A stretch of 64,000 bases of DNA. It comes from a virus. Both the position numbers and the translations under genes were made by a program. Under the pieces are notes generated by a model. It worked only from the letters and a program-made list of their open reading frames with translations, was not told where the DNA came from and did not search any database. Position 1 is the first letter of the stretch. Each line of letters begins with the position of its first letter. The stretch covers positions 1 to 64,000 of the IMG/VR virus record IMGVR_UViG_3300042466_001057. One strand, 5' to 3'. Positions 43,927 to 53,857 of the stretch are shown in pieces.

Positions 43927-45048
43927 TTATATAATAGTATACGGACTGTTAAAAGGTCTGAACTTTAATAACTTGTTTAAGTTTTCTGCCTGTAATGCTT
44001 TTGCCTCCATCATTTTATCTGGTCTCAATCTTTCAAGTCTTGTTTTAAGTTCTTCCCATAATAATGTTTTCTCATCTTTTGCTTCAGATTGAAGTGTTGT
44101 ATACTCCAAAGTTAACTCACTATCGGGAGTTTTAAGGTTACCACTATATTTACCTCTAACTCTTGCCAACGTTTCTTTACAATAAGCGGTAAACCATCTT
44201 CTAACCCAAGTTCTTGACGGGTTATTTAATTTATCCCATCGTAATCTTTCTAATGGAACATCTGAAGGTAATCGTACTACATCAGGGTTTTTAGATAAAC
44301 AATCTTCTCTATCGAAAGTATCATAATACCAATACCATACCTTATGGTCGTTTCTTTTCATATTACCAAAATCAAATTTACCTCCAGGTACATTGTAAAG
44401 GTGTATCGCTTTTTTACCTTCTGGTAGTGCGGTAACTCTATATGTTAAATCACCTGAAATAATTCTTCTTTTAATATTAATGTCCGACATTCTTAAAAGT
44501 ATGTCAGCAGCAGGAGTAATAAAATAGTTACCCGAAGTACCCATTTGTGAGAACCCCGCACCACCACCTAAACCAATTCCACCGAACCCACCGAACCCAC
44601 CCATAAAAGGGTCAAAATATGCTGCGTCTAACTCAGATCTTGAAAACCATAAAAGTTCGTTTAATTCTCTACCTGCAGGTATTTCGTATATTTGTTGGTT
44701 AGGAACCAAATCTATATAATCTTTTTTCAAAACGTAATCACCACCAGCCTGTAACCCTACGATCTTAGAATAGGAGTAAGTGTATTGCGTTTCCCAATCC
44801 AAACTTCTGGTTGTTAGTGCTCGTGTAACTGATTGCTCATCTAAATTTAGACCATACACTGAAGTCCATTGTGCTTCAATTAACCAATCTTGTATGTGTT
44901 GTTCGTAATCTTCGATTGATAACTCTAAAAGGGAATCTAATTGATCGTCATCAAGTTCAACAGAACGTAGTGGGGCACCTAATAGATTTTTAATCCTTCT
45001 ATAAAGTGCCTCTCTTTCAGGACCGGTAATTATAACAGTTGTTGCCAT
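43927..45048 (-). CDS. 13: Neck/head completion protein, gp13-like
   Basis: This 373-residue protein has a helical N-terminus (REALYRRIKNLLGAPLRSVE, then LDDDQLDSLLELSIEDYEQH) like head-connector adaptors. It continues with a beta part and a Gly/Phe-rich loop (FDPFMGGFGGFGGIGLGGGA). Its C-terminus is helical (WVRRWFTAYCKETLARVRGK). This pattern matches T4-like neck gp13 proteins. The gp14- and gp15-like genes follow on the opposite strand, and a TATTTAT motif precedes its ATG by 17 bases. Confidence 0.7.
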   Translation of the reverse strand: MATTVIITGPEREALYRRIKNLLGAPLRSVELDDDQLDSLLELSIEDYEQHIQDWLIEAQWTSVYGLNLDEQSVTRALTTRSLDWETQYTYSYSKIVGLQAGGDYVLKKDYIDLVPNQQIYEIPAGRELNELLWFSRSELDAAYFDPFMGGFGGFGGIGLGGGAGFSQMGTSGNYFITPAADILLRMSDINIKRRIISGDLTYRVTALPEGKKAIHLYNVPGGKFDFGNMKRNDHKVWYWYYDTFDREDCLSKNPDVVRLPSDVPLERLRWDKLNNPSRTWVRRWFTAYCKETLARVRGKYSGNLKTPDSELTLEYTTLQSEAKDEKTLLWEELKTRLERLRPDKMMEAKALQAENLNKLLKFRPFNSPYTII

Positions 45049-45060
45049 AGGTACTTATTT

Positions 45061-45073
45061 TATATATAAATAT
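45061..45073 (-). promoter_or_regulatory. Putative late promoter, TATTTAT motif
   Basis: The minus strand reads ATATTTATATATA, with the core ending 17 bases before the ATG at 45048. It is in the short gap after the superoxide dismutase stop. Confidence 0.5.
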
Positions 45074-45077
45074 CTAA

Positions 45078-45794
45078 CTATTTTGATTTGTTTAATTCTA
45101 TTCTTGTTAGATATTGATCGTTCACAAATTCCCAATTTACAACCTTCCAAAAATTTTTAACATATTCGTCTCTTTTATTTTTGTATTTTAAATAGTAAGC
45201 GTGTTCCCATACGTCTAAACCTAAGATCGGATATCCCCTTTCTTTTTCTGTATTCATTAGGGGGTTGTCTTGATTTGCGGTGGAAACAATTTTTAATCTA
45301 TTGTTGTCGGTCAAGATTAACCAAACCCAACCAGATCCAAATCGACTTTTTGATTCCTCCTCAAACTTCTCTTTAAATTTTTCAAACGAACCAAAGTTTT
45401 TATCAATTTCTTTTTTAATCGGATCTTTAACTGTTTGTTTTTTTGGACTTAACATTTTCCAAAATAATGCGTGATTAAATGCCCCACCACCATTATTTTT
45501 AACTTTATTGTTAAACTTTGATATTTTTATTATAATTTCTTCTAAGTCTATATCCTTACCTTTAACCTTTTCTAACTCGGCGTTTAGTTTATCAACATAC
45601 CCTTTATAGTGTTTTGTGTAGTGAGTTTTCATCGTCTCAGAATCTACAAAAGTTGTTAAAGAATTATAATCGTATGGTAGTTTTTCCATACTTATTTTTT
45701 TTATTTCAGAAATAATTGATTCGTTTAAAAATGAGGTATGGTTTAATTTACTCTCGATTAAATCTATTCTTTGATTAATTTTTTTAAATATCAT
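45078..45794 (-). CDS. sodA: Fe/Mn superoxide dismutase with N-terminal extension
   Basis: This 238-residue protein is a complete Fe/Mn superoxide dismutase, which converts superoxide to hydrogen peroxide and oxygen. The four metal ligands are present: H58 (ETMKTHYTKHYKGYVDKL), H108 (GGGAFNHALFWKM), D194 and H198 (GLDVWEHAYYLKY). GGAFNHALFW and ANQDNPL favour the manganese type. An extra helical N-terminus of about 36 residues holds LIE-S, LNE-S and ISE-I sites. I start at ATG 45794; a GTG at 45809 adds five residues but lies over the promoter motif. Confidence 0.9.
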   Translation of the reverse strand: MIFKKINQRIDLIESKLNHTSFLNESIISEIKKISMEKLPYDYNSLTTFVDSETMKTHYTKHYKGYVDKLNAELEKVKGKDIDLEEIIIKISKFNNKVKNNGGGAFNHALFWKMLSPKKQTVKDPIKKEIDKNFGSFEKFKEKFEEESKSRFGSGWVWLILTDNNRLKIVSTANQDNPLMNTEKERGYPILGLDVWEHAYYLKYKNKRDEYVKNFWKVVNWEFVNDQYLTRIELNKSK

Positions 45795-45796
45795 AC

Positions 45797-45806
45797 TAAT
45801 AAATAT
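45797..45806 (-). promoter_or_regulatory. Putative late promoter, TATTTAT motif
   Basis: The minus strand reads ATATTTATTA, with the core ending 4 bases before the ATG at 45794. It overlaps the last base of the SNF2 gene stop. It implies a nearly leaderless transcript. Confidence 0.45.
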
Positions 45807-47572
45807 CACCTACCATTAGAAATTATCTTTAACATTTCCTCTATCGAAGATGCCTCATCTAATAATAGATCATCCCCCATAACTGTGGATATTATTTTTT
45901 TCTTTCTATTTAAGATGTCGTATATCGCACCCTCTATTGTGTTTTCAAAAAGGGGATAGTAAACTGATGTTGAATTTTTTTGTCCAATTCTATGAGACCT
46001 ATCTTCTGCTTGAGCGTGTTCTGCCGGTACAAACGACAAATCATTCATAATAACCGCTTCGGCCGATGTTAAAGTAATACCAACACCCGCAGCTTTTAGG
46101 TTACCAATAAACACTTTAATTTTATCGTTTTCTTGAAAATCATCCACAGATTTTTGTCGATGAGGTTTTGAACAAGACCCATCTAAATAAACCGCACTTT
46201 TTCCAAAATGGTCATAAATTGTCCGTAACGTATCTGTAAAGTTTGTAAATATGATAACTTTTTTACCTTGTTCAATAATATTCTCAGCCAACTCAATAGT
46301 GTTTTTAACTTTTTCTTCGGCAATAACTTTTCTAACTTTCATTAATTTACCAAATTGGATGGTTAATGATCCGGATTCGTTAGGGTTTTTGTCGTACCAA
46401 TCATAGTATTCACCCATGAGTTCTTCATAGTCTTTAGACTTTAATCTTAAATAAACAGGTGTAATAATTTTATCGGGTAAATCTAAAACGTCTTCTTTTA
46501 GTCTCCTAAGAATGTGTGATTGCGTTCGTTCTCTTAGTTCATCTAAGTTTGATGCTCCCGTAACATTCCAAATTTTTCTATTACCCACAACGAATTGAAA
46601 CCCATTACAATATCTTTTTGCGTAAGCCATCCAATTTGCTGCGACAGGACTCTCAACTAAACTCAAAAGATTAAAATAGTTCATCGGTCTTGAGGTCATT
46701 GGTGTTCCCGTCAATAACCAAACCCTATCAATTTTATCACATAGATCATTAACAATTTTTGTTCTTTGTGCTTGGGGGTTTGATATCATATGAGCCTCAT
46801 CCATAATAACCAAATCAAATTTTGCATTTAAAATTGTTGATTCGTCTTTCTTTTTTGGATCGTGAAAGTTTTTTAAAATATCGTAATTAATTATTACAAA
46901 TTCGTGTTCATTTGAAAATTTCTTACCTTCTGCGATATAAACGGTTCTATCTGAATAGTTTTCAATTTCACGTTGCCAATTTATTTTTAAAGATGCGGGA
47001 CATACTATTAATATTTTTTTTATTTTTGTTTCAAGTGCGGCTATAATAGTACTGGTAGTCTTACCAAGACCCATATCATCAGCCAATATATATTTTTTGT
47101 TACCCACCAACTTAGTAATTGCTTCTTTTTGGTGTTCCATTGGAAGTCTATGGTTGTATTTGGTGTAATCAACAATAATGTTTTTCACTTCGTTATCTTT
47201 TATAAGTGCGGATTTTGGTAACCAAAAGTCGTGTACGGTGTCACCACTAAATATCTTACCCCATATATGATATGATTTATCTTTCTCAACCAAAAGTTTC
47301 TCAACATAAATCTCTGTCGGTTCTTTGGTATACATTTTTTCTTCCATCATTTTTTTACCAAAATACGAATCGAGTTTGACCCATTTTTTTGCGACCTTTG
47401 GTGTACGACCGTGAAAATTTATAATGTATTCCGCTTGAGACCTGGTAGGTGTAAACGATTTACTATTTTGTTTTTTGTGTTTTAAATTTAGGATATAGTT
47501 ATTTGATCCTTCATATTCGTCAAGTAATTGAAGTGACCGTGTTTCGGGAGTTCTTGAAATTAATTCTTCCAT
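45806..47572 (-). CDS. SNF2-family DNA-dependent ATPase
   Basis: I start at ATG 47572 (MEELISRTPETRSLQLLDEY). The frame is open further upstream to 47743, but that part is a hydrophobic shadow reading over the divergent gene. The 588-residue protein has helicase motifs: Walker A ADDMGLGKTTS (K171), DEAH at 258-261 (VIMDEAHMISN), TGTPMTSRP, and the second domain ending AQAEDRSHRIGQKN. SNF2 proteins remodel DNA-protein complexes or translocate on DNA. In phages they may act in replication, recombination or anti-host tasks. The frame overlaps the SOD promoter motif by one base. Confidence 0.85.
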   Translation of the reverse strand: MEELISRTPETRSLQLLDEYEGSNNYILNLKHKKQNSKSFTPTRSQAEYIINFHGRTPKVAKKWVKLDSYFGKKMMEEKMYTKEPTEIYVEKLLVEKDKSYHIWGKIFSGDTVHDFWLPKSALIKDNEVKNIIVDYTKYNHRLPMEHQKEAITKLVGNKKYILADDMGLGKTTSTIIAALETKIKKILIVCPASLKINWQREIENYSDRTVYIAEGKKFSNEHEFVIINYDILKNFHDPKKKDESTILNAKFDLVIMDEAHMISNPQAQRTKIVNDLCDKIDRVWLLTGTPMTSRPMNYFNLLSLVESPVAANWMAYAKRYCNGFQFVVGNRKIWNVTGASNLDELRERTQSHILRRLKEDVLDLPDKIITPVYLRLKSKDYEELMGEYYDWYDKNPNESGSLTIQFGKLMKVRKVIAEEKVKNTIELAENIIEQGKKVIIFTNFTDTLRTIYDHFGKSAVYLDGSCSKPHRQKSVDDFQENDKIKVFIGNLKAAGVGITLTSAEAVIMNDLSFVPAEHAQAEDRSHRIGQKNSTSVYYPLFENTIEGAIYDILNRKKKIISTVMGDDLLLDEASSIEEMLKIISNGR

Positions 47573-47577
47573 AATAA

Positions 47578-47585
47578 TATAAATA
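47578..47585 (-). promoter_or_regulatory. Putative late promoter, TATTTAT motif
   Basis: The minus strand reads TATTTATA, followed by TTATT and the ATG at 47572. It is divergent to the element at 47619-47628. Confidence 0.45.
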
Positions 47586-47618
47586 AAAATACTAAACAAT
47601 AATAAATAATCAATCAAT

Positions 47619-47628
47619 GTATTTATAG
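47619..47628 (+). promoter_or_regulatory. Putative late promoter, TATTTAT motif
   Basis: GTATTTATAG, with the core ending 4 bases before the ATG at 47631. A -10 element here would start transcription at or next to the start codon. Confidence 0.5.
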
Positions 47629-47630
47629 TT

Positions 47631-48146
47631 ATGGCACAGAATAAAGTCCCAATTACAAGGTTAAATAAGTTTTTTTCTGAAGAAGACTTTGATTTGGATA
47701 TTAATATGGGTGAGGAATGGTTACATGGGGACATGAATTTCACTTTAGTTTTATACAGAGTCGATAGACAAAGGACTGATAATGACGATGTGTATGGGGA
47801 GGCGTTAGAGGACTCGATACAATTTTTAGCTCCTGTCGAATTTAAAGGGTATGTTCAGGTGGAAGCACCTACAAATGTGGATTACGGTTCGTCAAAATTA
47901 TCACAAACAGAACCAGGTAATGTCAAAGTAGGGGTTTATCAAAAACAACTTGATGAGTTAGGTATTGATATTAATTATGGTGACTATATTGGTTACTATG
48001 AAACTGAAGATAGGGTAAGATATTATTCTGTAGTAAACGACGGTAGGGTTTTTACCGATAATAAACATACATATGGCGGGTATAAAAGATTTTATCGATC
48101 AATTATTGCATCACCTGTTAACGATAACGAATTTAAAGGTATCTAA
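47631..48146 (+). CDS. 14: Neck protein, gp14-like
   Basis: This 171-residue protein matches the T4 gp14-type neck protein. Features: FDLDINMGEEWLHGDMNF, TLVLYRVDRQRTDNDDVYGE, and FKGYVQVEAPTNVDYGSSKL with a later YGDYIGYYETEDRVRYYSVV. Neck proteins close the head after DNA packaging and join the tail. It overlaps the next gene by one base. The gp13-like gene lies nearby but on the opposite strand. Confidence 0.75.
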   Translation: MAQNKVPITRLNKFFSEEDFDLDINMGEEWLHGDMNFTLVLYRVDRQRTDNDDVYGEALEDSIQFLAPVEFKGYVQVEAPTNVDYGSSKLSQTEPGNVKVGVYQKQLDELGIDINYGDYIGYYETEDRVRYYSVVNDGRVFTDNKHTYGGYKRFYRSIIASPVNDNEFKGI

Positions 48147-52760: not shown

Positions 52761-52898
52761 ATGAAAATCGAAAAAAAAATCATTAAAGAAAGTGTAGGTG
52801 ATCAAAATATTAATAAAAAATCATTTTCTACTAAGAAACAAAACATAATAATAACTGAAGCTCAATTAGAATATATTTTATCAAAACTTAACAAGTAA
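52761..52898 (+). CDS. Small protein of unknown function (45 aa)
   Basis: I start at ATG 52761 (MKIEKKIIKESVGDQNINKK), since the promoter motif lies upstream and the longer frame to 52710 would overlap it. The 45 residues are basic, with a C-terminal helix (NIIITEAQLEYILSKLNK). The N-terminus has IKE followed by S, a prohead-protease type site. It ends one base into the start of the next gene (TAATG). Possibly an internal head peptide, but unproven. Confidence 0.55.
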   Translation: MKIEKKIIKESVGDQNINKKSFSTKKQNIIITEAQLEYILSKLNK

Positions 52899-53857
52899 TG
52901 GATATTAAAAAACACATATATATACAAGTACTTAAAAAAAGAATTAATGAGGGGTTGGTCGATGATTACGAAACAAAAGAATTAAGACCTGACTTAAAGT
53001 ATTATGCATTTGACTGGGACGATAACTTAATGTTTATGCCAACAAAAATAATGGTTATGTCTGAAAATGATGATGAGATCGGTATGTCAACTGAAGATTT
53101 TGCTGAACACCGAACTCAAATCGGTGTGGAACCTTTTAAATATAAAAGTGCAACAATTATTGGTTTTGCTAATGAACCGTTTAGGTTTTTCCGAGAAATG
53201 GGTGATAAAAGGTTTGTGGTCGACTCAATGACTGCACCACTTGGTCCAGCTTGGAATGACTTTGTTGAATGTATTAATGGTGGATCTATTTTTGCAATAA
53301 TCACCGCTCGTGGTCACAATCCTGAAACTTTAAAAGAATCGGTTTACAATCTTATAATGTCAAACAAAAATGGTTTAAATAGAAAAAAACTTGAGGAGAG
53401 TCTTAGACAATACGATTTATTAACCTCTGAAGGGATCTCTGAAGATATTAGACCAAATAGGAACACAACCATAGAACAATATTTAAATATGTGTAAATTC
53501 CATCCGGTTTCTTATGGAAGTGGTAGTGCGGCATCTCCTGAAGAAGGAAAAAACAAAGCACTTAAAGAGTTTATTTCATATTGTAGAGATTTGGCCAAAA
53601 ATTTAATACAGTTCATTTTAAAGAAGAATCCAAATATGGATCTTACCGATTTGGTTCCAAAATTTAAAAATGACGTAGCAATGGATGAACCGGTTATTAA
53701 TGTTGACGAATTTGTAAATAGACACACAACTATAGGGTTTTCAGATGATGACCAAAGAAATATTGAAGCATCATCAGAATTTTTAAATAAAGAGTATGAA
53801 AAAAATCCAGTTAATTTATACTTAACTAAAGGAGGTAAAAAAACTAGATTTAATTAA
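52898..53857 (+). CDS. HAD-superfamily phosphatase-like protein (319 aa)
   Basis: This 319-residue protein has a complete HAD core. Motif I is YYAFDWDDNLMFMPT with D39 and D41, the two catalytic aspartates; motif II is FAIITARGHNPET; and a late acidic motif is IGFSDDDQRN. It would hydrolyse a small phosphate ester or act on a phospho-polynucleotide. The first 18 residues (MDIKKHIYIQVLKKRINE) look like a detachable leader ending in INE followed by G. It lies among tail genes, between the sheath and the tube. Confidence 0.75.
   Translation: MDIKKHIYIQVLKKRINEGLVDDYETKELRPDLKYYAFDWDDNLMFMPTKIMVMSENDDEIGMSTEDFAEHRTQIGVEPFKYKSATIIGFANEPFRFFREMGDKRFVVDSMTAPLGPAWNDFVECINGGSIFAIITARGHNPETLKESVYNLIMSNKNGLNRKKLEESLRQYDLLTSEGISEDIRPNRNTTIEQYLNMCKFHPVSYGSGSAASPEEGKNKALKEFISYCRDLAKNLIQFILKKNPNMDLTDLVPKFKNDVAMDEPVINVDEFVNRHTTIGFSDDDQRNIEASSEFLNKEYEKNPVNLYLTKGGKKTRFN

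Follow-up and report, generated by a model that had tools for sequence, protein, structure and literature searches.

The 64,000-nucleotide stretch of viral DNA analysed here (the window, 64 kb of a 71.9 kb virus record) encodes a Mn-type superoxide dismutase (SOD) with intact active-site residues and predicted catalytic activity, and this phage-owned SOD belongs to the core genes of a large, uncultivated clade of T4-like phages. We put at about one in two (roughly 0.5) the probability that the protein is made as a capsid-targeted precursor, which would be cut by a protease to normal length and delivered with the DNA. This reading draws on an (I/L)xE site in a leader of low predicted order, on the normal length of the predicted product, on tag-like C-terminal linkers and on polyprotein relatives, as well as on gp21 and gp23 genes in related records, the presence of SOD at 160/160 neck loci and low dN/dS values.

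The SOD gene and its product

The SOD gene and its two neighbours are encoded as follows.

45078..45794, minus strand: gene of a predicted Mn-type superoxide dismutase, 238 aa (open reading frame, both Pfam domains, PDB relatives)
43927..45048, minus strand: head-tail adaptor (neck) gene, next to the SOD gene on its downstream side (PHROG 211, 7.5e-11; present at 79/80 SOD loci)
45806..47743, minus strand: SNF2-type helicase gene, directly upstream of the SOD gene, likely ATG at 47572 (start judged from the sequence)

ORF calling and translation placed the reading frame on the minus strand with its ATG at 45794, and the plus strand of 45078-45794 showed no open frame and many stops. Pfam recognised Sod_Fe_N (PF00081, 9.5e-23) and Sod_Fe_C (PF02777, 1.7e-42) far above cut-off, and the closest PDB relatives were SODs, several of them named Mn-SOD (8e-63). 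The description of the gene in an earlier note as a complete Fe/Mn SOD was thereby confirmed, the coding strand being the minus strand, as was its position between the neck gene (PHROG 211) on one side and the SNF2-type helicase gene (Pfam SNF2-rel_dom, 4.7e-31) on the other. The four metal ligands that the same note had reported as intact (H58, H108, D194, and H198) are present and were invariant in an alignment with 22 viral relatives, together with H62, Y66, W156, W158, Q175, E197, and Y201. By motif count the first metal ligand was kept in 159/161 distinct viral proteins. The suggestion that the residues favour manganese agrees with G104 (Gly at the N-terminal second-sphere position) and Q175 (Gln at the C-terminal position), a pair which from knowledge of the family we take to be of the Mn type, the metal actually bound being beyond what can be read from sequence. 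In the AlphaFold model most of the SOD domain had pLDDT values above 70.

Distribution, synteny and phylogeny

Scanning IMG/VR yielded at least 591 stretches with genes for relatives of the window SOD, whereas the deposited phages gave 14 SOD matches with at most 48% identity (all below 60%). The view that SOD is unusual in tailed phages therefore holds for deposited phages and fails for metagenomic ones. Among the best 80 SOD loci of the at least 591 stretches, the same neighbourhood surrounded the SOD gene in 80/80, with SNF2 (80), neck (79), sheath (73), and DNA polymerase (70) genes in conserved order and two ORFs beyond SNF2 in 74/80; missing neighbours fell mostly in short loci. In the reverse direction, SOD was found in 160/160 loci retrieved with two neck proteins, the window's own and one 64% identical to it (80/80 with each). 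A viral structure library contained an uncultured-phage SOD (UniProt A0A6J5L953, 501 aa) with 60% identity to the window model.

The closest cellular SODs, mostly from Bacteroidota, were 40-51% identical. In a maximum-likelihood tree with 70 bacterial SODs, the 57 viral SODs formed one clade with 100/100 support on a branch of 0.47, the bootstrap being not fully settled. The dN/dS values between viral SOD pairs ranged from 0.02 to 0.16, several dS values being near saturation. The tree of phage and bacterial SODs that had been proposed as a check thus separates the viral proteins and, together with the synteny, excludes contamination. SOD is admittedly common in bacteria (12/14 control genomes), so that a contaminating or very recently acquired host gene could have been suspected; given the distance from cellular relatives, the separate clade and the synteny in 80 contigs, the probability of such an origin is negligible.

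The top deposited matches of the T4-like tail sheath encoded in the window were from Microcystis phage Mel-JY01, an uncultured phage and Flavobacterium phage immuto, and the family B DNA polymerase was nearest to those of Salinibacter phages. Both point to a host that is probably Bacteroidota-like. At about 7000-28000 (minus strand) the window carries a long series of ORFs in a single direction, and on visual inspection several of them resemble sugar-nucleotide epimerases and glycosyltransferases. In MW462191.1, deposited as a bacteriophage and the one of the 14 deposited matches that was inspected, the 16 kb region that holds the SOD gene also has genes of bacterial type, namely for transcription regulators, efflux, a class C beta-lactamase and an aminotransferase; by gene content the record is probably a mislabelled bacterial contig.

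The leader and its candidate protease sites

The 238-aa protein can be divided into a leader and a SOD part (slashes mark the candidate cuts).

45705..45794, minus strand: leader, residues 1-30 (MIFKKINQRIDLIESKLNHTSFLNESIISE), with candidate sites FLNE/S (residue 25) and IISE/I (residue 30)
45081..45704, minus strand: predicted mature SOD, residues 31-238, including the ligands and G104/Q175 (alignment, residue check)

In most bacterial SODs of the set some 7 residues precede the LPY core, whereas the viral SODs carry an extra leader which ends in (I/L)-x-E exactly 9 residues ahead of this core, a feature that is new. In the window SOD, FLNE occupies residues 22-25 and IISE residues 27-30, and the equivalent of E30 is invariant in viral relatives. 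The glutamate at LPY-9 was present in 121/121 distinct viral leaders, and (I/L/M)xE at this position was found in 80/80 viral loci versus 0/67 bacterial SODs. The 121 distinct leaders all have E at P1 and have I, L, V, or M at P3, while P2 is unconstrained and the part further upstream is mostly variable. The T4 gp21 prohead protease follows the rule L/I-X-E (PMC9026906), which the retention of P1 and P3 with a free P2 matches, suggesting a site of the gp21 type at the end of the viral leader. A cut after E30 would leave a SOD of normal bacterial length, and residues 16-35 are the least ordered part of the AlphaFold model (pLDDT below 50).

Other properties of the leader count against cargo. 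At P1' of the E30 site, 63 of the distinct leaders have M and 58 have I, unlike the small residue of other sites. Since (I/L)xE is a short motif within a helix rich in E and L, and the adjacent K32/K33 are conserved as well, a structural role of the leader is possible. The leaders were also scored against a matrix built from tags at the N-termini of other clade proteins, with length-matched nulls at 95% and 99%. Scores were weak: 55/161 N-terminal leaders exceeded the 95% null and 11/161 the 99% null, and the window's own leader scored 5.3, below its 95% cut-off of 6.4.

Modular relatives of the window SOD

In many relatives the SOD reading frame includes, ahead of the leader, an HExxH-containing domain of some 125 residues; from this motif the domain is termed zincin-like. 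Among 161 distinct SOD proteins the HExxH module was present in 95 and a C-terminal extension in 81. When 54 loci were collected by means of the HExxH domain, SOD followed in frame in 50, and in the remaining 4 the frame is truncated by the locus end. Pfam searches with the HExxH and C-terminal modules of the relatives gave nothing over cut-off. Clustering of the C-terminal modules of distinct proteins yielded four groups of 52, 23, 4, and 2 members, the largest of which, formed by single linkage, may mix different folds. The C-terminal domain of one family was modelled with a mean pLDDT of 86.8 and gave weak PDB matches to PD-(D/E)XK nucleases (I-Ssp6803I, E 0.006, and archaeal Hjc), suggestive of a nuclease-like module.

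The linkers in these relatives often resemble NIIKQVISE/G, MVKKILTE/S, or SLRKVLSE/G, and 44/82 C-terminal linkers scored over the 95% null of the clade tag matrix (14/82 over the 99% null). Because many relatives are extended by the zincin-like module at the N-terminal side, by a nuclease-like or different module at the C-terminal side, or by both, the window SOD looks like a reduced form of a modular cargo polyprotein. Some SODs (L036, L026, and L062) end soon after a KKKLNES linker, as if a later module had been lost or split off.

Head genes and tag-like N-termini in the clade

A search for head genes in 15 related records, many of them fragments, found a gp21-type protease in 6 (the other nine, mostly fragments, gave no match) and a gp23-type capsid protein in 8. 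The virus record of the window itself, which is incomplete, showed no gp21 gene. The N-terminal region of the gp23-type protein contains HLINE/AASTD, which we liken to the cleavage site of T4 gp23. Tag-like (I/L/V)xE motifs within residues 5-35 occurred in 81/510 proteins, versus 17/360 to 39/510 in later residue windows.

Dozens of small, diverse proteins with N-terminal tags are encoded in the record G002 (the contig of L034), loci L093-L103, for example MKxLIRKILKEE, MNLQEHIRKVLREE, and MKKIIRLTESDLxRIVKRVIKE; such sequences are possibly a phage-wide capsid-targeting tag. The window itself encodes, at 52898-53857 (plus strand) between the sheath and tube genes, a protein of 319 aa whose KYYAFDWDDN motif looks HAD-like by eye and which has homologs in uncultured phages of 630-735 kb. 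Its orthologs have a variable leader, mostly ending in (L/I/V/F)xE/G, and the window copy carries such a leader, which makes it another candidate for capsid cargo. In the cultured Flavobacterium phage immuto similar leaders are found close to the head genes, and a virion proteome of this phage was not found in the literature.

Comparison with known systems

The window SOD shares with bacterial Mn-SODs, the nearest of which are in Bacteroidota, the domains Sod_Fe_N and Sod_Fe_C, the four ligands, the Mn-type residues and a similar mature length. It differs from them by its 40-51% identity, the leader with the invariant (I/L)xE, its own clade and the fusions in relatives. Freshwater phages with SOD and other genes against reactive oxygen species (ROS) were described by Kavagutti et al. 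(2019; PMC6802176), where, in the portion of the article considered here, these genes are read as being expressed for the ROS defence of the host. Both cases concern SOD in uncultivated aquatic tailed phages; that portion does not take up the leader, the status as a core gene, the modules of the polyproteins or packaging.

T4 internal proteins and Alt (PMC9026906) likewise have a leader with an L/I-X-E prohead-protease site, and the SOD clade has genes of the gp21 and gp23 types. However, the enzyme is a different one, the SOD leader is longer than the 10 residues of T4, and packaging of SOD is here predicted from sequence. Polyvalent proteins are multidomain phage proteins with zincin modules, proposed to be injected (Iyer et al., 2017; PMC5512222), which the SOD relatives resemble in fusing a zincin-like HExxH module to unrelated activities, whereas SOD is their constant part and the window copy carries the SOD domain alone. 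Several activities in one chain, as in polyvalent proteins, are thus found in the relatives and not in the window protein. The word "superoxide" is absent from the text of Iyer et al. (2017). Nothing on phage SOD in virions was found in the literature searched, and in the open-access main texts searched we found none that describes SOD as head cargo, as a core gene of a T4-like clade or within such a polyprotein.

Possible routes of SOD action

In the proposed mechanism the N-terminal leader would send SOD to the prohead core, as capsid targeting sequences do for the internal proteins of T4, and a gp21-type prohead protease would cut past (I/L)-x-E, most likely at E30. The SOD of normal bacterial length would stay within the head and enter the cell with the DNA, where it would remove superoxide at the start of infection; alternatively, it may protect the packaged genome in the meantime. 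The earlier note had left it open whether the infected cell or the virion is protected, and the (I/L)xE sites and polyproteins tilt the balance towards a particle-borne SOD, short of proof. A wider and more tentative proposal, which we hold at less than even odds, is that the clade packages SOD as the constant part of a protease-processed polyprotein, composed of a zincin-like module, SOD and swappable modules that are nuclease-like or of unknown kind, and injects it with the genome against an oxidative response of the host.

SOD may instead be a cytoplasmic auxiliary enzyme which is made late in infection and stays in the cytoplasm of the host, where detoxification of superoxide would keep the cell productive, with the leader serving as a helical extension for stability or oligomerisation. 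The intact active site and the weakly tag-like leader suit this explanation, as does the "phage-mediated ROS defence" already published for freshwater phages (PMC6802176, in the portion considered). We regard it as the main rival but as less likely than cargo, because it accounts neither for the conservation of Glu at P1 and Ile/Leu at P3 in a leader that varies at P2 and most other positions, nor for the protease-like linkers and the fusion to zincin-like and nuclease-like modules, nor for the presence of SOD at every neck locus examined. The fixed position beside the neck gene, inside the structural module, would also fit a structural virion protein in which the SOD fold serves at the neck or the particle surface and catalysis is secondary. 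This is considerably less probable, since the ligands and second-sphere residues that are invariant in the aligned set would be needless in a purely structural role.

Phage SODs have so far been read as optional stress genes acting in the host, whereas here SOD is found at every neck locus examined, fixed in the structural module and with flanks like capsid-protease sites. If SOD is packaged, a ready-made enzyme would meet superoxide either within the particle or during the first minute after infection begins, and the question arises which host response makes the superoxide. A leader ending in (I/L)xE would then also be a simple sequence rule for finding capsid cargo in uncultivated T4-like phages.

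Transcription of the SOD gene

A late-type promoter motif had been reported directly upstream of the SOD gene. The motif, TATAAATA, lies at 45065-45072 on the plus strand, which is 3' of the gene, and the coding-strand sequence before the ATG (...GGTAGGTGATATTTATTAGT-ATG) lacks it. With 18 occurrences in the window against 16.8 expected, TATAAATA is at chance frequency. The wrong strand and this frequency rule out a late promoter immediately 5' of SOD. On the coding strand the closest copy upstream of SOD is found in front of SNF2, about 48 nt from the likely ATG of that gene.

47620..47627, minus strand: TATAAATA, putative late promoter of a SNF2-SOD-neck transcript (motif at chance frequency)

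The SOD start is only 11 nt past the SNF2 stop codon, so both genes are probably carried on one transcript. The argument that had been given for late expression therefore falls with the misplaced motif; late expression itself is plausible from gene order, the SOD gene lying between SNF2 and neck genes in one direction and downstream of the copy of TATAAATA before SNF2. This copy forms a divergent pair with another at 47578-47585 (plus strand), each some 46-48 nt ahead of a likely start, those of the SNF2 gene and of an opposite ORF at 47631, and they may be divergent late promoters.
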